A stretch of DNA of 62,779 nt from a virus. Where the stretch lies: IMG/VR virus record IMGVR_UViG_3300010413_002075, positions 1 through 62,779 of that record, one strand, 5' to 3'. This document shows, one piece after another, positions 35,516 through 52,893 of this stretch. The position numbers and the translations under genes are program-made. Under the pieces are notes generated by a model. The model did not search any database. It had not been told where the DNA came from and worked only from the letters and a program-made list of their open reading frames with translations. The stretch's first letter is position 1; every line of letters starts with the position of its first letter.

Positions 35516-35915
35516 TGGTGGAGCCGGAGGGAATCGAACCCTCGTCCGCAAAACTTCTTACAATATCTCATATGACTATCTGCACTGAACGGTTTATTTT
35601 ATAGTCTGTCCAACTCAGCACCAAGTATTCAGACTAGGGACGTAGGCTAGCTACGCCTCCACCAGGTTGCTTTTTAAGTCATCCCAGGACCGAAGGATTA
35701 CCACCGTCATCGTCTACCTTCTGTTGCCAGGTAAGTAGAAACCCCGCTCTGTTCGCTTTTTAGGCTGCTAGAGCAACGGGCGCACTGTCCGAAAACAGAT
35801 TGCCACTGAAAAATGCTTCTTCGGCATTTAAAAAGTTGAGCCTTTTTAACGTGGCCTGCTCAACCACGAGTCATCAACATTGCCGCCCATTCCACGTCGA
35901 AACCAGTACGGCCCC
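35516..35915 (-). ncRNA. ssrA: tmRNA (trans-translation RNA)
   Basis: 400 bases. The 5' end GGGGCCG pairs with CGGCTCC before ACCA at the 3' end, leaving encoded CCA. The 5' part continues TACTGGTTTCGACGTGG and the 3' part has a T arm GAGGG-TTCGATT-CCCTC. The tag frame can be read on the minus strand from 35828 to a TAA at 35760-35762. It gives up to 22 residues beginning NAEEAFFSG and ending SAPVALAA, a typical ClpXP-type degron end; the exact resume codon is uncertain. It rescues stalled ribosomes. A phage ClpP is encoded about 3 kb away. Confidence 0.96.
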
Positions 35916-42722: not shown

Positions 42723-44252
42723 TCATTTGATTACCCGTACCATCTTCTTATCGAATTCTTCTCTAGTTGGTAGCGGAGTTTGTAAAATTTCCTCTAGCAA
42801 GTCTACTCTGCTTGGTTTAGTAAGCAAAGGTATCAGATTTGGAATAGAATAGTAATCTGCACCAGATGGTACATGAATAGCATCATATTCGATTCCTTCT
42901 GCAGCACACTCTCGCTCAAGTTTGTCACAACTCCACTTGCCGCAATTGACAAAAACAACCTTTGGCATAAAACCAAACTTCTTTTTGTAGGCACGCATTT
43001 CTTCTATAAATAATGGATTTCTATTTTCTCCTTGATCGGTTACCATTATGATTTGTTCAACCATTTGGTTGCGGCCACGCAAATGATGTATGCCGGCACC
43101 GCATGATGTGGCATTACGAGCTTTAATCATCTTCATGGCTTTTTGCCAGTCGTCAAGTGAATTGCTCACGCAAGTAATTGGTACAGCTACAACATCAGCG
43201 GCATAGCAGTAGAAATCGCCTTCAACTATTGTTGAAATCATCGCACCTATGCCTTTACCAATTTCAATTGCTTCGGTCATTGATTGCGATTTATCAATTA
43301 TTAGTGCAGTGCTACGCTTAATAGTTCCTTTGCGCTTTAATTGTTCGCTAGATATATCAACCAATTGTTTTGCAGTTTCACTGTCTACACCAGCAGTTTC
43401 AGCTGCCTTAGCGGCTTTCAACGCATCGACCTTCTTAGATTTCTTAACTTTCTTCAGCTTAATATCTACAAGAGACTTTATGTCCTTATTATCTAAAGCT
43501 CCACGCTTTTTCAAGGCGCCAAGATTTACTAGAAGCTCTTGATCTGTCATGTTATTGATCAATGCTGCTATTACTGTAGGAGTCATATTTTTTATAGCAC
43601 CCACTGCAGTAGTGTATGGTATCTTGTGTTCCACTATAAGCTTAGCTTGTTCTACTGGGTCATTTTCGCCAGCCAAAAGCTTTATTTGATACAGCTTAGA
43701 ATCTTTTGGTGGTTGATCTTCAAACAGAATGGCCTGAGCGCGTGTCACTTGACATTCTTCACCATCTACTACTACCGTAGTATCTTCGTCTTGATGAGCG
43801 CCAGGCTTTAATCTAAATGAAGAATAAAGACCTGTAAGCGCATTTCTCTGACGTGCAGCAACGGCTCCATCGAATCTAGAATCATTAAGCTCAAAATCTT
43901 TTAAATAGGTTTTGACCGCCGATTTCATTACACGAGGCGGATTCTTTTTGAATACCTTCTTAACATGATTCTTGATCTTTTCTACTTGATATGGAGGGAA
44001 ATTCTGCAAAAGAACATATCCTACTTCTCTATGTTCTGGGAATTCGCTCAATAGCAAAGTAGCAACAAACACTTCCTTGTGATCTCGAATGTCGGTATTC
44101 TCCATTGCCCATACGGCCAAATGTCCGTAGAATAATGGATCCTGATCAATCATACTCTTATGAGTTTCTACTACGCGACCAATGTCACGGTGAGTAGAAT
44201 CTAGTAACGAGTTTAAAATTTGTAATCTTACATCTTGCTCTTTGCTTGCCAT
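42723..44252 (-). CDS. Ro60/Rsr-like TROVE-vWA ring protein
   Basis: 509 aa. The N-terminal 300 residues are helical-repeat (HEAT-like) with LLVNLGALKKRGAL, as in the TROVE domain. The C-terminal vWA domain has a MIDAS: DKSQS at 320-324, NATSCGAG, and VTDQGEN. Cellular Ro60 and bacterial Rsr form rings that bind misfolded RNA 3' ends and Y RNAs and can steer exonucleases. A phage copy is unusual. AAGGAG precedes the ATG. An RNA locus with tRNA-like inserts lies about 8 kb upstream on the same strand. Confidence 0.83.
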   Translation of the reverse strand: MASKEQDVRLQILNSLLDSTHRDIGRVVETHKSMIDQDPLFYGHLAVWAMENTDIRDHKEVFVATLLLSEFPEHREVGYVLLQNFPPYQVEKIKNHVKKVFKKNPPRVMKSAVKTYLKDFELNDSRFDGAVAARQRNALTGLYSSFRLKPGAHQDEDTTVVVDGEECQVTRAQAILFEDQPPKDSKLYQIKLLAGENDPVEQAKLIVEHKIPYTTAVGAIKNMTPTVIAALINNMTDQELLVNLGALKKRGALDNKDIKSLVDIKLKKVKKSKKVDALKAAKAAETAGVDSETAKQLVDISSEQLKRKGTIKRSTALIIDKSQSMTEAIEIGKGIGAMISTIVEGDFYCYAADVVAVPITCVSNSLDDWQKAMKMIKARNATSCGAGIHHLRGRNQMVEQIIMVTDQGENRNPLFIEEMRAYKKKFGFMPKVVFVNCGKWSCDKLERECAAEGIEYDAIHVPSGADYYSIPNLIPLLTKPSRVDLLEEILQTPLPTREEFDKKMVRVIK

Positions 44253-44446: not shown

Positions 44447-44688
44447 TGGAATGAAACCGATATATTCTCTCCAGGTTCTTTCTTGCGATAACTACTCACA
44501 GTAATAGAATTTTGTGATTGGTCGCTCGCGGTACGAATGAATACATACCTAGAGTTATTAAAATAGGCGTCATGAAAACAAACACGCATTTGTCTGTCTA
44601 AATAACTAACTATTTCAGATTCACACTTCCCCGTATCAACGTCCCACATATCTACCATACGATTTTTCATATCAATCTTCTTCTGCAT
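44443..44688 (-). CDS. Small hypothetical protein
   Basis: 81 aa with GGAG 8 bases before the ATG at 44688, overlapping the cysteine desulfurase end by 17 bases. Mixed alpha/beta, no motif recognised. Confidence 0.5.
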   Translation of the reverse strand: MQKKIDMKNRMVDMWDVDTGKCESEIVSYLDRQMRVCFHDAYFNNSRYVFIRTASDQSQNSITVSSYRKKEPGENISVSFQ

Positions 44689-45823
44689 TTTGACTGCTCC
44701 TTATGGCATTAACGGTGCCAATTATTCGATCTGCTGCATAGTTTATATCTTCGTCGGTTGTCCACCTGCCAAGACCAAACCTAATAGCACAATCTGGATA
44801 TGGGGTTCCTAATGCCTCAATAACGTGTGATGGCTCTAGATCCCCCGATGTACAGGCTGAACCCCCAGATATAATAACATCGTCCAGCCCTTTTACTAAA
44901 ATCTCCGCCTTTATACCTTTTATAGTGATATTTAGATTGTTTGGCAAGCGATTTTTCATTGTTCCGTTAATAAATGCATCAGGCAATTCTTTGTGAATAA
45001 TATTCCATAGTTTATTTCGCAGTTTCTTAATACGCTTATTTTCTTCTTTTCCTTCTTTTTCAAGAATTTCACATGCCTTGCCAATCCCTACTATAGCCGG
45101 GACATTTTGAGTTCCAGATGTTACTATATTCTGATAACCCCCATGAATTATGGGTTTTATTTTACTTATATCCCTAACATATAAAGCCCCAACTCCTTTT
45201 GGGCCATATATTTTATGACCACTCATTGTCAAAGCAAATATGTTCATTTCATCAACATCTATGTCAATTTTTCCAATTGCTTGAGTTGCATCAGTATGGA
45301 ATAAAGCTCCATATTTTTTACACAAAGCTCCTATTTTTTTAAGATCATGAATAGTGCCTATTTCATTATTGGCAGCAATTATAGAAACTAAAACTGATTC
45401 ACATGATGCATACGATTTAAGTCTAGATTCCAATTCTTTTAGAGATATGTTTCCTTCTTTATTTATTTTAAAATAAACTATATAAGCATTATCTGGAGCA
45501 TTGTCAATAGACTTAACAACAGAAGAATGTTCGGTGTTAGTAGTAAACAAGCTTCTCCATTCATTTAAATCATCGCCCCACCAACTATTTAGAATTATGT
45601 TATTGGCCTCAGTGGCAGAGTTGGTAAAATAGATATTGTCCGACTTTGCCTTAATTATAGAGGCTACTTGTTTTTTAGCATGTTCGATGGCTCTAGCGGC
45701 ATCTTCGCCAAATCGATGGGCCGACGCTGGGTTGCCGAAGCGCTCAGAAAAAAATGGCAGCATGGCTTCGGCAACCCTTTTATCAACAGGAGAAGTAGAA
45801 TGATAATCGAGATAAATTTCCAT
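44672..45823 (-). CDS. Cysteine desulfurase (IscS/NifS family)
   Basis: 383 aa. Residues: HSTSP and RFGNPASAHRFG near the start, PLP-binding Lys204 in SGHKIYGPKG, and catalytic Cys324 in GGSACTSGDLEPSHV. It takes sulfur from cysteine for Fe-S clusters or tRNA thiolation. No scaffold (IscU) is in the window. It could support the phage Fe-S enzymes (Cas4-like nuclease, family-4 UDG) or modify phage tRNAs. Confidence 0.93.
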   Translation of the reverse strand: MEIYLDYHSTSPVDKRVAEAMLPFFSERFGNPASAHRFGEDAARAIEHAKKQVASIIKAKSDNIYFTNSATEANNIILNSWWGDDLNEWRSLFTTNTEHSSVVKSIDNAPDNAYIVYFKINKEGNISLKELESRLKSYASCESVLVSIIAANNEIGTIHDLKKIGALCKKYGALFHTDATQAIGKIDIDVDEMNIFALTMSGHKIYGPKGVGALYVRDISKIKPIIHGGYQNIVTSGTQNVPAIVGIGKACEILEKEGKEENKRIKKLRNKLWNIIHKELPDAFINGTMKNRLPNNLNITIKGIKAEILVKGLDDVIISGGSACTSGDLEPSHVIEALGTPYPDCAIRFGLGRWTTDEDINYAADRIIGTVNAIRSSQNAEED

Positions 45824-45831
45824 ATCTAACC

Positions 45832-46689
45832 TTATAGAGAAATATTAAATTTTCCGCGTTGTCTGGTTTTTGTATCTCGGTTATTTGGTATATCAAATGG
45901 ATCTCCTAGCCAAACAACTTTTTCTTGATTGACGTCACCAGACAGCCTGTAACAATAAAATGAACTTACTGTTCCATCAGCTCGTACGCGTTCTATAATA
46001 TTAGTCATTTTTAATCCAAATCCCAGCTCTTCTAATTCAGGATTTGGATGGACCAATGTAGCCGCACCATCAAATCCTGAAATACTCAATGGGTTTGGAA
46101 ATGTTAACATAGGACGAGTTCTATCAAGCCCATCTCCAAAAGATCCTAATCCTATCTTTTTCTTACGTTCGCCTGTAATGTTTAGATAGAACTTAAAATC
46201 TTCATTCAAAAGATTACCATCTACCAATGCTAAGGCGGTCAATGTAGTGCGTGCAGTATCACCATATGGATTTTCTGAACACATAAATAGATAGAAACTG
46301 CGAATATCTAATGGTTTATTGTCTGCATAAACACGCACTTTGCCGCAAGGAGGAGTGCTATTATAGTCTATGCTAGATGCTCTAGATATAGCGCCATTCT
46401 TGGCACGGCTAACGCGTTTCAGCTCTATAGCCACGATATGTTCAATATTGTCCAATTTGTTCATATCTAATTTGTCAGCATCATAAAGAACTATATCAGG
46501 AGAAACCAATGGCCCAGATCGTTCACATTCAACATCAAGATTGGATAGAACATTATTAGCCATATATTCATCTAATGGATCATCCTGCGTATTTTTCTTT
46601 TGTCTTAAGAAAAAATCCGTTGGTTTCATGTCATCATCAAAGAAATGTTTTCTCAACATGATGAATGCATTAATTGGAATATCATTCAT
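45832..46689 (-). CDS. PD-(D/E)XK nuclease-like protein (restriction endonuclease-like)
   Basis: 285 aa. SPDIVLYD (Asp65) followed 24 residues later by AIELKRV (Glu89, Lys91) is the PD-(D/E)XK pattern. The rest has beta-rich segments resembling a type II restriction enzyme-like fold. No DNA methyltransferase is next to it, so it is more likely a phage nuclease for host DNA or DNA processing than half of a restriction-modification pair. Coupled to the glutamine synthetase stop (ATGA). Confidence 0.55.
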   Translation of the reverse strand: MNDIPINAFIMLRKHFFDDDMKPTDFFLRQKKNTQDDPLDEYMANNVLSNLDVECERSGPLVSPDIVLYDADKLDMNKLDNIEHIVAIELKRVSRAKNGAISRASSIDYNSTPPCGKVRVYADNKPLDIRSFYLFMCSENPYGDTARTTLTALALVDGNLLNEDFKFYLNITGERKKKIGLGSFGDGLDRTRPMLTFPNPLSISGFDGAATLVHPNPELEELGFGLKMTNIIERVRADGTVSSFYCYRLSGDVNQEKVVWLGDPFDIPNNRDTKTRQRGKFNISL

Positions 46690-47771
46690 TTTTGGGCAAT
46701 TACCTTTCTGACTTGATCATATCCAAATTTTAACATAAGCGGCAGGGCAACATATGGGTTCATTTCTGGATCTGGCAATCTAAATTCTAATCTTTTTCCG
46801 TCTCCAGGAATACGCACTGTTTTAGTTCTATCGTGCCATCCCCATCCATTATTTTCTTTCGTTGGTGCCTCAAATCCAGGAACTAATCGTTTAGAACTAG
46901 TATCGCCTACACAACATACTTCTAACAGTTCATCATAATGATCAACTAAACCTTGTGCATAGGCTTCAACGAATTTAGAGTTAGATACCACCTTATAGGC
47001 GTAGGGTTGTTCTTGATAAAAAACTGGTTCTACTTTTCTCATTAATGGAATGCTTTGATGAACATGACACCCGCTGCCATTTAAATTATCAAATGGTTTC
47101 GCTCGAAAATCTGCTATGTATCCAAACTCTTTACAGGTATTAGACACTATATATTTGAAAAGCATCATTTGGTCACATATGTTTAATAACTTGCCACATT
47201 CCCAAGAAAACTCGCATTGGCCTGGTGCAACTTCGTGATGTATTGCTTCCACTCTGAAGCCTGCTTTTTCTAATCGCTCAGCTATGGTGTTTCTAACATT
47301 TTGAAATTTATCTAATGGTGGCAAACATCCATACCATTTATATTGTTCTTCATTAGCTAAATCTGTAAAAGTATTAATATCGATTGGAATATAACGATCA
47401 GCACTATCAAATGTGCAAACAAAAAATTCTGGTTCAACGCCGAACAACGCTCCATTAGTTTGATCATCCTGTATCATTGCTTTGTAAGCTTCTTTGCGAA
47501 AACATTTACTAAGATTGATACGATTTTCAAATCCTTCTGGATTATCCACAAAACAAAAAACGCTGTCCATTTGTCTTATTGGATCAAAATGTTTAGATTC
47601 TGTATCAGGTACTAATAACATATCACTAGCATCAGTTGGACAAAATCCAAAGGAACTCCCATCAAAATACGTATTGGGTAATTTTTTACCAGCTCTAATT
47701 ATTTTGTCTCTCAAGTTTCCTTGTGAGTCAATAAATTTATAGCTGATAAAGTTTGTACTTTTTATTGTCAT
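46686..47771 (-). CDS. glnA: Glutamine synthetase
   Basis: 361 aa, shorter than bacterial GlnA (about 470). Motifs: FDGSSFGF, GVEPEFFV, HHEVAPGQCEFSW, NGSGCHVHQS and VPGFEAPTKENNGWGWHDR, covering both metal sites, the ammonium site and the ATP region. It would form glutamine or gamma-glutamyl amides. In a phage this could feed nucleotide synthesis or decorate DNA bases or surface sugars with an amino-acid group. It is coupled to the neighbouring rfbC and nuclease genes. Confidence 0.88.
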   Translation of the reverse strand: MTIKSTNFISYKFIDSQGNLRDKIIRAGKKLPNTYFDGSSFGFCPTDASDMLLVPDTESKHFDPIRQMDSVFCFVDNPEGFENRINLSKCFRKEAYKAMIQDDQTNGALFGVEPEFFVCTFDSADRYIPIDINTFTDLANEEQYKWYGCLPPLDKFQNVRNTIAERLEKAGFRVEAIHHEVAPGQCEFSWECGKLLNICDQMMLFKYIVSNTCKEFGYIADFRAKPFDNLNGSGCHVHQSIPLMRKVEPVFYQEQPYAYKVVSNSKFVEAYAQGLVDHYDELLEVCCVGDTSSKRLVPGFEAPTKENNGWGWHDRTKTVRIPGDGKRLEFRLPDPEMNPYVALPLMLKFGYDQVRKVIAQK

Positions 47772-48376
47772 AACTCACCTCGTGCCATACGATCAATGAT
47801 TGGGAACATAAAATTATTGTCCGCATCTTTCAATAATGGTGCTTGGGCATCTTTATCTGATATTTTGAATGCTTTATTATCATACCAGTGTTGTGGTCCC
47901 CATTCTATTCCAATTTCTGGATCATTCCATCTGATACATCTGTCATGCTCAGCTGAATAATACTCAGTGACTTTATACACTACATGGGCTATATGTAATC
48001 CATATGCCAAGAATCCGTGCGCAAATCCTGGCGGAATATATAACATACGTCCATTATTTTCGTCTAATTCTACCTTGACCCATTTGCCATAAGTTTTAGA
48101 CCATTTTCTAATATCAACTGCTACATCTACAATATGTCCAGCCACACAGTATACCAATTTTCCTTGTGCTTTTGGGTTTAATTGATAATGTAAGCCACGC
48201 AGGCAGGGCGGCGCAGAGCGTGAATGATTCTCTTGAACGAAGGGAGGAATTCCGTTCATCCGAAACTCATTGTCTCGGAAAGACTCTGAGAAAAATCCAC
48301 GGCCATCTTTAAAGCGCCGCCCCTCTATGATAACAACTTCTGGTAATTCAGAAGTTGGAATAAATGTGAATGACAT
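47768..48376 (-). CDS. rfbC: dTDP-4-dehydrorhamnose 3,5-epimerase-like protein
   Basis: 202 aa. RmlC/RfbC motifs: RGLHYQ, DVAVDIRKWSKTYG, PPGFAHGF and the IEWGP region are present in a cupin fold. It makes dTDP-4-keto-L-rhamnose. RfbA, RfbB and RfbD are not in this window, so it may complete a host pathway or modify a phage or host glycan. It overlaps glnA by 4 bases. Confidence 0.88.
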   Translation of the reverse strand: MSFTFIPTSELPEVVIIEGRRFKDGRGFFSESFRDNEFRMNGIPPFVQENHSRSAPPCLRGLHYQLNPKAQGKLVYCVAGHIVDVAVDIRKWSKTYGKWVKVELDENNGRMLYIPPGFAHGFLAYGLHIAHVVYKVTEYYSAEHDRCIRWNDPEIGIEWGPQHWYDNKAFKISDKDAQAPLLKDADNNFMFPIIDRMARGEL

Positions 48377-50025: not shown

Positions 50026-50432
50026 TTGATCCCTGCCAATTCTTCTATAAGCTCTTCTTTTCTAATTTCTTCCAACTTTTTCTTTGCCTTTTGAATGGTT
50101 TTCTTATTAAGATCTATCGATCTTTTGAGTTGCTTTATATCTCTCATCAGCTTAGATTTATGTTCTGCAGGCGTAAGCTTATCTGCTTCTTCCTTAGTGT
50201 CAAATAAATCTTTTTCAGTAAGTTTGGTATCAACTCTATACCAAGCGTAAGATCCTCTTTTAGCTGGAGCTATATAATAAACCACAGTCTCTGGTTTCTT
50301 AGTATTTTTTGTTATTTCGGTTTCTACTATCACCTTTTTGATAGTAGTTTGATATCCCTTTTTATTATATTTATAATATACCTTCTGTCCTACTGAATAT
50401 TTTACTTTAGCCTTGTGGTTTATTGTCTTCAT
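50022..50432 (-). CDS. SH3/KOW-like barrel plus coiled-coil protein
   Basis: 136 aa from the ATG at 50432, preceded by GAGAGG. Barrel-like VKYSVGQKVYYKYNKKGYQT and a long Lys-rich coiled coil. It overlaps the EF-Ts stop region by 26 bases, so it is likely translated together with EF-Ts; a role at the ribosome is a guess from that coupling. Confidence 0.55.
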   Translation of the reverse strand: MKTINHKAKVKYSVGQKVYYKYNKKGYQTTIKKVIVETEITKNTKKPETVVYYIAPAKRGSYAWYRVDTKLTEKDLFDTKEEADKLTPAEHKSKLMRDIKQLKRSIDLNKKTIQKAKKKLEEIRKEELIEELAGIK

Positions 50433-51021
50433 CACCCTCTCCCACAACAAATCTCACGAATCTTTTAATAACTATTTTCTCGCTAACTTGAGCCGCCAAA
50501 TCACCTAACAAATCAGTAATAGTGATATTTGAATCTCTGACAAATAATTGATCCATCAAACAAGTTTCTTTGAAAAATTTATTTAGCTTGCCTGCCACTA
50601 TTTTATCTATTACTTGTGGAGGCTTACCTTCCAAAGATGCAGCCATAATTTCTTTTTCTTGATCGATTATTTTTTGCGGAACCTCGTCTCTGGTTATCCA
50701 TCTAGGATTAGTAGCCGCAATATGCATAGCTACTTCTTTAGCAAACTTTTGGAATGCCTCGCCCTTAGCTACAAAATCGGTTTCACAATTGATCTCTACC
50801 ATAACACCTATTTTGCCTCCAGCATGAATATAATATCCAACTGTGCCTTCGGAAGCAGTCTTACTGGCTCGATTGCTAATGTCGGACAGACCTTTCTTGC
50901 GCAAATGGATAATTGCTTGTTCTACATTTCCATTACTAGCAGTTAGTGCCTCTTTGCAGTCCATCATTCCTGCGCCAGTTTTTTCCCTGAGTTCTTTAAT
51001 CTGTTGCAGCGTCACGCTCAT
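50407..51021 (-). CDS. tsf: Elongation factor Ts
   Basis: 204 aa, the short EF-Ts type (Thermus 196 aa). UBA-like N-terminus LREKTGAGMMDCKEAL, then VEINCETDFVAKGEAF, the EF-Tu contact motif TDFV. It exchanges GDP on EF-Tu, and would act on host or phage EF-Tu (none in this window). AAGGAG precedes the ATG. It also forms part of some RNA phage replicases, but here a translation role is the simple reading. Confidence 0.95.
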   Translation of the reverse strand: MSVTLQQIKELREKTGAGMMDCKEALTASNGNVEQAIIHLRKKGLSDISNRASKTASEGTVGYYIHAGGKIGVMVEINCETDFVAKGEAFQKFAKEVAMHIAATNPRWITRDEVPQKIIDQEKEIMAASLEGKPPQVIDKIVAGKLNKFFKETCLMDQLFVRDSNITITDLLGDLAAQVSEKIVIKRFVRFVVGEGDEDNKPQG

Positions 51022-51827: not shown

Positions 51828-51866
51828 AGAAAAGCCGGGAAGTATTTAAAATACGTCCCGGCTTAT
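51828..51866 (-). terminator. Intrinsic terminator of the RNA locus
   Basis: AAGCCGGGA at 51832-51840 pairs perfectly with TCCCGGCTT at 51856-51864, extended by an inner GTATTT/AAATAC stem, with UUUUCUUUU on the minus strand. It ends the RNA transcript just before the ribosome binding site of the gene at 51018-51809. Confidence 0.88.
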
Positions 51867-51874
51867 AATAATCA

Positions 51875-51952
51875 TGGCTCCAAGGGGCGTCTGGAATTCA
51901 CCGACCTCCCAGCCGAAACTGGGCGCTCTTAATCCGTCTGAGCTACCTCGGA
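51875..51952 (-). tRNA. tRNA-like gene 1, identity not assigned
   Basis: 78 bases with encoded CCA. Acceptor TCCGAGG pairs with CCTTGGA, then TA, D arm GCTC/GAGC with GG in the loop, and an AGGTC variable region. The anticodon arm does not close normally: CCCAGT-TTCG-GCTGGG forms a 6-bp hairpin with a UUCG tetraloop, or a 5-bp stem with a 6-base loop. The T arm lacks the TTCRA loop. It may be a pseudo-tRNA or decoy. Reads such as TCG or TTC for the anticodon are possible but unproven. Confidence 0.5.
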
Positions 51953-51955
51953 ATA

Positions 51956-52038
51956 TGGTGCCAAGAAGTGTCTGGTGAACACTGACCTCCAAGTCCTCAA
52001 TAGGACTGGCGTTCCTAAACCATCTGAACTATCTCGGC
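51956..52038 (-). tRNA. tRNA-like gene 2, identity not assigned
   Basis: 83 bases, encoded CCA. Acceptor GCCGAGA/TCTTGGC is fully paired and the D arm GTTC/GAAC has GG. The central arm AGTCCT-ATTG-AGGACT is a 6-bp hairpin with a 4-base loop, not a 7-base anticodon loop. T-like arm AGTGT/ACACT has loop TCACCAG. Spaced 3 bases from its neighbours. Confidence 0.5.
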
Positions 52039-52041
52039 GTA

Positions 52042-52134
52042 TGGTGCAGGGGCAGACTTACGAGGACTGCATCTCCGACTAGGCTCAGGCTGATGAACCT
52101 AGAAGGTATTCTTTAGCGTACTGAACTACCCTGC
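52042..52134 (-). tRNA. tRNA-like gene 3, identity not assigned
   Basis: 93 bases, encoded CCA. Acceptor GCAGGG/CCCTGC (6 bp), D stem GTTC/GAAT. The central arm can form a 9-bp stem CTAGGTTCA/TGAGCCTAG with a 6-base loop. A CAT triplet lies in an alternative fold, so tRNA-Met/Ile(CAT) is not excluded. T arm GCAGTC-CTCGTAA-GTCTGC has an unusual loop. Length would suit a class II tRNA but the fold does not match one. Confidence 0.45.
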
Positions 52135-52137
52135 TTA

Positions 52138-52211
52138 TGGTGCAAAGGAATGGTTACGACCCACTATCTCCCCAGTTTAACTGAGGCGCTCTCGACTTAA
52201 GCTACCTTCGC
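52138..52211 (-). tRNA. tRNA, possibly Leu (anticodon TAA)
   Basis: 74 bases, encoded CCA. Acceptor GCGAAGG/CCTTTGC, D stem GCTT/GAGC, anticodon arm CCTCA-GTTAAAC-TGGGG giving TAA (codon UUA), T arm AGTGG/CCATT with loop GTCGTAA. Variable loop is short, unlike normal tRNA-Leu, and the T loop lacks TTC. An alternative 6-bp/5-base fold of the anticodon arm is also possible. Confidence 0.55.
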
Positions 52212-52215
52212 AAAA

Positions 52216-52353
52216 TTTGCCATCCGATTTTTATAAGCTGTTTTGTTGTCACATCATGCAGGAATCGAACCTGCTACCCTTAGAATCCAAATCTAATGCT
52301 CTACCTAATGAGCTAAAAATGTATGTACGCTTACAACGTCAGAAGACGGCAAA
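52216..52353 (-). ncRNA. RNA cassette D: paired flanks enclosing tRNA-Pro-like module
   Basis: The flanks TTTGCCGTC (52345-52353) and GATGGCAAA (52216-52224) pair (9 bp, one wobble), and inside them TTGTAAGC (52329-52336) pairs with GCTTATAA (52231-52238). Next come TACATAC before the insert and ACA after it, as in the other three cassettes. The insert is a tRNA-like module in normal order. Confidence 0.75.
52250..52322 (-). tRNA. tRNA-Pro (TGG)-like module, no encoded CCA
   Basis: 73 bases inside cassette D. D arm GCTC/GAGC; anticodon arm TTAGA-TTTGGAT-TCTAA with anticodon TGG (codon CCA); T arm GCAGG-TTCGATT-CCTGC. The acceptor ACATTTT/ATGATGT is weak with one mismatch and uses part of the conserved TACATAC. 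CCA is not encoded; the 3' flank continues GACAACAAAACAGC. It may be a processed tRNA, or a tRNA mimic in a longer RNA. Confidence 0.7.
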
Positions 52354-52368
52354 ACTTATATGTGTGTA

Positions 52369-52492
52369 GTCTGTCCGATTATTAAAAGCTGTCTAATAAC
52401 TCTGCTGGAGTCGAACCAGCTCCTCAAATGTGGAAAATTTGCGTCAAACCAATTGACAAAAGTATGTAAGCTTCCAAGGTCTGAGGACAGAC
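52369..52492 (-). ncRNA. RNA cassette C: paired flanks enclosing tRNA-Gly-like module
   Basis: Outer stem GTCTGTCC (52485-52492) with GGACAGAC (52369-52376), 8 perfect pairs; inner stem TTGGAAGC (52470-52477) with GCTTTTAA (52382-52389) including two wobbles. The conserved TACATAC and ACA border the insert. The outer stem sequence differs from the other cassettes but pairing is kept. Confidence 0.77.
52397..52465 (-). tRNA. tRNA-Gly (TCC)-like module, no encoded CCA
   Basis: Inside cassette C. D arm GTCA/TGAC, anticodon arm CAAAT-TTTCCAC-ATTTG (anticodon TCC, codon GGA), T arm GCTGG-TTCGACT-CCAGC. The acceptor is short: ACTTT/AGAGT gives 5 pairs, and outer positions mismatch. No CCA. The good arms but poor acceptor fit a tRNA-like domain at least as well as a working tRNA. 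Confidence 0.65.
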
Positions 52493-52593: not shown

Positions 52594-52753
52594 TTTTACC
52601 ACTCGATTCATCAAAGCTGTTTTCTCTCTTTGAGACTGTTTATAACACAGTTGCCTTTTCCAGTTTGGCTACTCGCCCATAAAAATTGGTGGGCGAGGAT
52701 GGATTCGAACCACCATTAAAGTATGTAAGCTTCCAAAATAAGAGAGCGGTAAA
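52594..52753 (-). ncRNA. RNA cassette B: paired flanks enclosing permuted tRNA
   Basis: Outer stem TTTTACCGCTC (52743-52753) with GAGTGGTAAAA (52594-52604), 11 pairs with one wobble; inner GAAGC (52729-52733) with GCTTT (52613-52617), 5 pairs including one wobble. TACATAC and ACA border the insert as in cassettes A, C and D. Here the flanks meet at the variable loop of the tRNA rather than at the acceptor. Confidence 0.77.
52635..52714 (-). tRNA. Circularly permuted tRNA, probably Ile (TAT)
   Basis: In transcript order the 3' half comes first: T arm GGTGG-TTCGAAT-CCATC (52698-52714), acceptor CTCGCCC (52691-52697), then ACCA ending at 52687. An 8-base linker (52679-52686) follows, then the 5' half: acceptor GGGCGAG (52672-52678), TA, D arm GCC/GGC with GG in the loop, and anticodon arm ACTGT-GTTATAA-ACAGT (52635-52651, anticodon TAT). 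The acceptor halves pair perfectly. The joining point is the variable loop. A CTC-AAA-GAG mini-stem follows the anticodon arm. Confidence 0.8.
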
Positions 52754-52778
52754 AACTTTTATTCCTTTCAAAATATTT

Positions 52779-52850
52779 GCGTCTAATTTATTAAAGCTGT
52801 TTATGCCTATTCAACTCATGGGTATGTAAGCTTTAAAAGTCAGATGACGC
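52779..52850 (-). ncRNA. RNA cassette A: paired flanks with short non-tRNA insert
   Basis: Outer stem GCGTC (52846-52850) with GACGC (52779-52783), inner TTAAAGC (52830-52836) with GCTTTAA (52791-52797), and the same TACATAC and ACA borders. The insert is only 21 bases (CCATGAGTTGAATAGGCATAA) and holds no tRNA. It is the first element after the promoter. Confidence 0.65.
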
Positions 52851-52865
52851 CTTTTTCTATGTTCT

Positions 52866-52893
52866 ATTATACGCTTTCTGCGACAAATGTCAA
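52866..52893 (-). promoter_or_regulatory. Consensus sigma-70 promoter of the RNA locus
   Basis: Minus strand TTGACA (52888-52893), 16-base spacer, TATAAT (52866-52871), perfect consensus. It lies between the small membrane protein gene and cassette A and should drive the whole RNA locus to the terminator at 51828-51866. Confidence 0.92.

Follow-up and report, generated by a model that had tools for sequence, protein, structure and literature searches.

YrlA RNAs are encoded together with the Ro60 orthologue Rsr, which is bound by their basal stem (PMC8394870, PMC7790460). They are tRNA mimics, and in its crystal structure YrlA can be overlaid on tRNA as a circularly permuted form of it (PMC11472068). 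Phages likewise encode YrlA-type Y RNAs together with Ro60 (PMC7790460, PMC8394870, PMC11472068). PNPase is held to Rsr by the Y RNA, and YrlA has been suggested to act as a competitive inhibitor of an anticodon nuclease (PMC7790460). Here, we describe a locus in a 62,779-nucleotide stretch of viral DNA (IMG/VR record IMGVR_UViG_3300010413_002075, positions 1 to 62,779), referred to below as the window. Its central element, the second unit of an array of four (unit 2), carries a tRNA-like module whose 3′ half precedes its 5′ half. We consider unit 2, with a probability of about 85%, to be a Y RNA of a phage Ro60–Y RNA system, on the basis of its layout, the stems that it shares with its neighbours, a gene with the Ro60 fold in the same genome, arrays with covarying units that adjoin this Ro60 in other phages, and the joint absence of array and Ro60 from a collinear relative. 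Y RNAs with permuted tRNA heads are already known, but in these the likeness to tRNA is believed not to reach the anticodon. What is new here is the intact anticodon arms, the mixed topologies and the arrays.

The permuted module and the array that holds it

On the minus strand, the module starts with a T arm (52714-52698; stem 52714-52710/52702-52698, loop UUCGAAU), which is followed by the acceptor 3′ strand CUCGCCC (52697-52691) and ACCA (52690-52687). After a linker, AUUUUUAU (52686-52679), come the acceptor 5′ strand GGGCGAG (52678-52672), a D arm of 3 bp with GG in its loop (52669-52653), and a complete anticodon arm of 5 bp and 7 nt, ACUGU-GUUAUAA-ACAGU (52651-52635), with the anticodon UAU at 52644-52642. 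All seven acceptor pairs form. Thus, an earlier sequence-only reading of this DNA was right about the order of the parts, the 8-base linker between CCA and nucleotide 1, and the perfect 7-bp acceptor; the coordinates agree, on the minus strand. Additionally, the module has A73, a canonical T loop and U33, but G at position 32. In its native order it was not called as a tRNA by ARAGORN; when its halves were rejoined, the call was tRNA-Ile(tat). An unconstrained fold of unit 2 gave exactly the same four arms (z ~ -3).

A chance origin of the module was rejected by a scan in which short slices of the whole window were doubled, i.e., circularised. The unit 2 locus was found by 44 slices, as compared with 5 slices for the best random locus in 150 composition-matched first-order Markov resamplings of the window, of which 128 gave no locus at all. 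Clearly, the permuted order in a phage context, as first proposed, is real. The 3′ half of the module is 93-97% identical to the ends of phage tRNA-Tyr, and for this reason the encoded CCA may be a relic. What is unusual in unit 2 is the presence of a complete anticodon arm together with an encoded ACCA.

The module does not stand alone. It is enclosed by a longer stem in which UUUUACCGCUC (52754-52744) pairs with GAGUGGUAAAA (52604-52594), and it belongs to an array of four tandem units (52850-52216, minus strand), each closed by its own outer stem of unit-specific sequence (Table 1). The first description of the locus gave the layout correctly, and lacked this stem and the array. All four units share one architecture: an outer stem (5, 9, 8 and 9 pairs in units 1-4), an internal loop, and an inner stem AAGC/GCUU (7-8/9 pairs), past which the 5′ side continues with UUACAUAC (GUACAUAC in unit 4) and the 3′ side with ACA. 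The 12-mer AAGCTTACATAC, with at most one mismatch, occurs four times in the window, every time inside the array; its expected count is 0.38, and none of 100 shuffles contained four copies. As judged from folds and pair counts, each of the four units has the paired ends, the internal loop and the variable head beyond them that characterise a Y RNA.

Table 1. Coordinates of the array, its flanking elements and the Ro60-like gene in the window.
Feature	Position	Strand	Description
Predicted divergent Ro60 (Rsr) homologue, 509 aa	42723..44252	-	HEAT-like N-terminal half, vWA C-terminal half, DKSQS MIDAS-like motif
Sigma-70 promoter-like site TTGACA-16-TATAAT	52866..52893	-	12/12 match, just upstream of unit 1
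Unit 1	52779..52850	-	Stem GCGUC/GACGC, inner AAAGC-UUACAUAC..ACA-GCUUU; short hairpin head, no tRNA
Unit 2	52594..52754	-	Stem UUUUACCGCUC/GAGUGGUAAAA around permuted tRNA-Ile(UAU) module; from fold, rejoined tRNA call and slice scan
Permuted tRNA module of unit 2	52635..52714	-	T arm, acceptor 3′ strand, ACCA, linker, acceptor 5′ strand, D arm, anticodon arm
Unit 3	52369..52492	-	Stem GUCUGUCC/GGACAGAC; in-order tRNA-Gly(UCC)-like module without CCA, 35.1 bits
Unit 4	52216..52353	-	Stem UUUGCCGUC/GAUGGCAAA; in-order tRNA-Pro(UGG)-like module without CCA, 62.4 bits
tRNA-Leu(UAA) and three tRNA-like genes	51875..52211	-	Encoded CCA or GCCA; downstream of array
Hairpin AAGCCGGGA...UCCCGGCUU and T run	51830..51864	-	Closes cluster; conserved, read from sequences

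The sequence-only reading had explained the layout by a circularly permuted tRNA gene, the transcript of which would be joined at the variable loop, by circularisation or splicing, before being opened at the acceptor. The permuted order and the complete cloverleaf agree with this, and the window contains an open reading frame (ORF) of the DNA/RNA ligase superfamily. However, the same stem also encloses a short plain hairpin and two in-order tRNA-like modules, for which splicing at it would make no sense, and the proposed need for circularisation and ligation at the variable loop is not supported. Moreover, between the tRNA body of unit 2 and any splice-like bulge there lies a 6-bp helix, as well as unpaired nucleotides on either side. 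Inspection of the fold revealed no motif resembling a bulge-helix-bulge (BHB) at the ends of the tRNA body, the bulges lying beyond the 6-bp helix and a 13-nt stretch, although no dedicated BHB scan was made. The permuted tRNAs described so far are confined to unicellular algae and one archaeon, and apparently require a BHB-splicing endonuclease (PMC3978253). Unit 2 is like those genes in having the tRNA 3′ half before the 5′ half, but differs from them in that it lies in a bacterial virus, in an array of stem-bound units, with no such junction seen beside the tRNA body. We therefore regard a permuted tRNA gene as very improbable.

Likeness to YrlA and a divergent Ro60

YrlA was the only Rfam family that covered unit 2 as a whole (52739-52624, 27.8 bits, E=1.9e-5 for the record). 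Unit 2 has the order of YrlA (RF02553; Salmonella structure PDB 6CU1), i.e., T arm, acceptor-like stem and D arm, and like YrlA it ends in a stem, here a putative Ro-binding one, and is encoded in a genome with a Ro60. The two differ in that the basal stem of YrlA sits at the place of the anticodon arm and a short cap closes its acceptor, whereas unit 2 has a separate anticodon arm, a full-length acceptor and ACCA.

As a control, we used 339 records of phages with Ro60 genes. In Vibrio phage BONAISHI, the Ro60 gene is immediately preceded by two YrlA RNAs (59.3 and 35.8 bits), and matches to YrlA lie near Ro60 in Gordonia phage Boopy, Mycobacterium phages DirtMonster and prophiGD43A-5, and Streptomyces phage Comrade. 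In Listeria phage P100, TROVE was not matched and the YrlA model gave noise only. The permuted-tRNA scan also flagged the YrlA RNAs near Ro60 in the Gordonia, Mycobacterium and Streptomyces phages; these and the BONAISHI RNAs served as positive controls. Evidently, YrlA genes ordinarily look permuted in this way. The view that no phage example of this layout had been described is consequently untenable, as phages were already known to carry YrlA-type RNAs with this order and the present phage encodes a Ro60 homologue. Abundant small RNAs of Listeria phage CKA15, encoded near a Ro-like gene, have also been suggested to be Y RNAs (PMC12282133); unlike in the window array, no tRNA chimeras were described among them. 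Annotated phage tRNA-Thr and tRNA-Leu genes (L061 1681-1759 and L058 5154-5242, respectively) overlap YrlA matches near Ro60, and they may be misannotated Y RNAs. Caution is advised when a phage sequence matches a permuted tRNA, or when a phage tRNA is annotated close to a Ro60 gene, as such calls may represent Y RNAs.

The Ro60 homologue of the window was not apparent from standard annotation. No match to Pfam TROVE (PF05731) above the cut-off was obtained in the window, including ORF 42723-44252, and this at first argued against a link with Ro60. The 509-aa product was recognised only through PHROGs, profile comparison and fold comparison. It matches phrog_850 (E=2.6e-4), into which the Ro60 proteins of BONAISHI and prophiGD43A-5 fall too. 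Its homologues are one protein of the 595-kb uncultured phage LR756511 and five IMG/VR proteins, and the profile of this family aligned with that of seven phage Ro60 proteins with an hhalign probability of 97.7 (E=2.5e-12). In a sequence-profile search of the PDB, the only matches were two TROVE proteins, both weak. An AlphaFold model built from six sequences reached a predicted local distance difference test (pLDDT) score of 73.8, and the top 12 Foldseek matches of this model in the PDB, all those with E < 0.001, were Ro60/TROVE proteins (E from 2e-9 to 6e-8), including D. radiodurans Rsr and Ro60 of Thermus phage phiLo. A single-sequence model (pLDDT 44) was uninformative and was not used. 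Because phrog_850, the hhalign profile and the modelled fold all point to Ro60/TROVE, the predicted protein is best identified as a divergent Ro60. As modelled, it has the same HEAT-like ring half and vWA fold as Rsr (2NVO) and phiLo Ro60 (9L5Y), but it is only ~14% identical to the bacterial and phage proteins. A Ro60 orthologue is thus encoded in the same genome as the array, as expected for Y RNAs.

Related arrays in other phages

Five other phages have both a Ro60 of the window type and arrays of tRNA–Y RNA chimeras (LR756511, L073, L074, L075 and L076), and in four of the five the units obey a strict rule with covarying stems. In LR756511, L073, L074 and L076, ~5 to 10 units lie immediately upstream of Ro60, with the TTACAAAC motif as in the window. 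The 5′ side of these units reads GUCCCCNAC, inner stem, UUACAAAC, and the 3′ side inner stem, ACUUGGAC. The outer helix is 100% paired across 24 homologous units; its covariation was 0.586, as compared with 0.230 in shuffled units (0/500 reached the observed value) and at most 0.177 when the partner strand was slid. Matches to the strict unit rule were found only in stretches near Ro60, and in none of 200 resampled loci. In all five phages the 3′ core is ACUUG, as in YrlA; this core is diverged in the window units, which have in common with the relatives the inner stem, TTACAWAC, ACA-GCUU and the architecture.

Based on base pairing in single sequences and the covariation of the stem, the heads can be assigned to three topologies. 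In type I, an in-order tRNA is placed within the stem (Ser CGA, Thr UGU, Arg ACG, Leu UAG and others; units 3 and 4 of the window). In type II, a permuted tRNA retains its own anticodon arm, as in LR756511 (Lys UUU), L075 (Cys, Lys and Ser) and unit 2, which is thus a type II member of this chimera family. In type III, the D loop of an in-order tRNA carries the stem as an insertion capped by a GAAA-type loop; clear cases have 7/7 acceptor, 5/5 anticodon-arm (with loops such as CUAUUAA) and 5/5 T-arm pairs, and no CCA. Type III RNAs, in which the D arm is fused to a putative Ro-binding hairpin, were observed in L070 (LR756511 255000-298000), L073, L074 and L076. No published description of them was found among open-licence papers, and since the literature search was confined to such papers, a description of the arrays may have been missed. 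Units with a small head only, like unit 1, occur in LR756511 and L076. In the 469-kb phage contig L075 (9107-8600, minus strand), the acceptor stem of permuted heads is extended into a very long hairpin.

These arrays bear on two further explanations. The stems could be leader–trailer elements of tRNA processing unrelated to Ro60, with units 3 and 4 as ordinary tRNAs whose flanks pair and unit 2 as a rearranged copy; indeed, units 3 and 4 score as tRNAs, and some in-order units of the relatives encode CCA. However, the stem is retained in units without a tRNA head, the arrays of the relatives adjoin Ro60, and the type III stem cannot be a leader and trailer because it is grafted into a D loop and closed by GAAA. 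We find this explanation quite unlikely. That the units are functionless, decaying tRNA remnants is barely credible: the T loops of the downstream tRNA-like genes are aberrant, as decay would predict, but unit 2 has lost none of its arms, the promoter has no mismatch, and the same family shows covariation in phages that are only distantly related.

In the 162-kb relative G002, which is collinear with the window, Ro60, the array, tRNAs and transfer-messenger RNA (tmRNA) are all missing. Its Ro60 site, between the aminotransferase gene and the one that follows, and its array site, beside the gene for EF-Ts, are both empty. In the window, the tmRNA gene lies at 35516-35915 (minus strand). Array, tRNA and tmRNA were not found in the relatives L001 and G003 either, their sequences not covering all the sites. 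The closest Ro60 (66-68% identical), that of L072, adjoins the same aminotransferase gene, and tmRNA is present, but the position of the array cannot be checked as the contig ends before it. Two plus-strand CTTACATAC matches in L072 were taken as chance, being on the strand opposite to the Ro60 gene, and their sequences were not read. Searches of IMG/VR with exact DNA patterns of the unit stem returned chance matches only (L002, L003, L013-L039), queries with EF-Ts and the packaging ATPase returned one relative or none, and a scan of genome contigs with the Ro60 alignment gave no bacterial relative.

A probable phage Y RNA with a tRNA-like head

Taken together, these results can be arranged into the following picture. 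A strong promoter would drive the array of four small RNAs and then the tRNAs. Both ends of each RNA would pair as a long stem with an internal loop, which would be gripped by the ring of the phage Ro60, and a tRNA look-alike head would lie beyond this stem. In unit 2, the head is predicted to be a complete cloverleaf that opens at the variable loop, so that the tRNA order in the gene is circularly permuted; the ends of units 3 and 4 meet at the acceptor, hence their ordinary reading order. Unit 2 would be functional as transcribed, and no ligation would be needed, since its ends are those of the putative Ro-binding stem.

Several observations weigh against this picture. Unit 2, with its 27.8 bits, misses the gathering score of YrlA, 69, by far. 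The Ro60 gene of the window is 8 kb from the array and not adjacent to it. The Ro core of the relatives, CCNAC/ACUU, is not kept in the window units (UCUGAC/AAUAAAUC). Finally, ACCA and a 7/7 acceptor exceed the needs of a mimic, and the codons AUA, GGA and CCA are heavily used in the window, as suits real tRNAs. As to the first point, phage Y RNAs beside Ro60 genes also score below 69 (59.3, 52.1, 39.3 and 35.8), so that low scores in Rfam are to be expected of phage copies.

Some of these observations would be explained if unit 2 were a two-piece tRNA-Ile(UAU) that is charged and reads AUA, its linker being removed by RNase P at G1 and by 3′ trimming up to ACCA, and its nicked halves being held together by the stem as a giant variable arm. 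Two-piece tmRNAs are known in some bacteria; they arise from permuted tmRNA genes with the acceptor 3′ part first and a linker between CCA and nucleotide 1. Unit 2 has the same order and linker, but no reading frame, and is expected to be one continuous RNA. The intact acceptor, A73, T loop and U33, the correctly placed CCA (1/64 by chance) and the 3′ half so close to tRNA-Tyr ends would all suit a working tRNA, as would the frequency of AUA (27.7 per 1000 codons, 41% of Ile). However, units 3 and 4 lack CCA even though the ordinary tRNAs of the cluster encode it, the permuted units of LR756511 and L075 lack it as well, and the acceptor hairpins of L075 are very long. Moreover, position 32 is G, and the in-order units need no such scheme. 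A two-piece tRNA is therefore unlikely. It is likewise improbable that the heads are translation-competent tRNAs tethered by Ro60, with unit 2 cut at the linker only and its halves held by the Ro60-bound stem, and with the tRNAs of the window, LR756511 and L073-L076 arrays bearing their Ro60 handle terminally, in the variable loop or in the D loop.

If unit 2 is a Y RNA, Ro60 would hold the stem and expose the tRNA-like head to tRNA-recognising enzymes. Tentatively, the head might serve in infected cells to occupy or titrate host anticodon nucleases and similar enzymes that act on tRNA. By analogy with known YrlA, it could instead tether PNPase; we judge the decoy role to be the likelier of the two because the heads, unlike that of YrlA, keep complete anticodon arms. 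This phage family joins one putative Ro60-binding stem with complete, anticodon-bearing tRNA look-alikes in three topologies and in arrays, beside a Ro60 that escapes standard annotation. It offers a natural set of engineered-looking tRNA permutations, makes the purpose of the tRNA head of Y RNAs directly testable, and suggests a possible means of countering defence by nucleases that cleave tRNA.

The array does not end the cluster. The downstream tRNA-Leu(UAA) and tRNA-like genes are probably on the same transcript. The T loop of the tRNA-Leu (52211-52138, minus strand) is aberrant too. The three tRNA-like genes that follow (52134-52042, 52038-51956 and 51952-51875, minus strand) have good acceptors and encode CACCA or GCCA, but their T loops are non-canonical and their anticodon loops odd; they were missed by ARAGORN and Rfam. 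The hairpin that closes the cluster was not listed by a terminator scan; it is kept at the empty site of L001. No self-cleaving ribozymes or further Rfam families were found around the units. By eye, promoter-like sequences also precede the arrays of LR756511, L075 and L076. Other genes on the minus strand of the window encode EF-Ts (50407-51021), a dTDP-sugar epimerase (47768-48376), glutamine synthetase (46686-47771) and a class V aminotransferase (44672-45823). Between units 2 and 3 lies an 80-nt structured stretch (52590-52511, minus strand) closed by 7 perfect bp, GGGGUCA/UGACCCC, and followed by ACAA, with no T loop.
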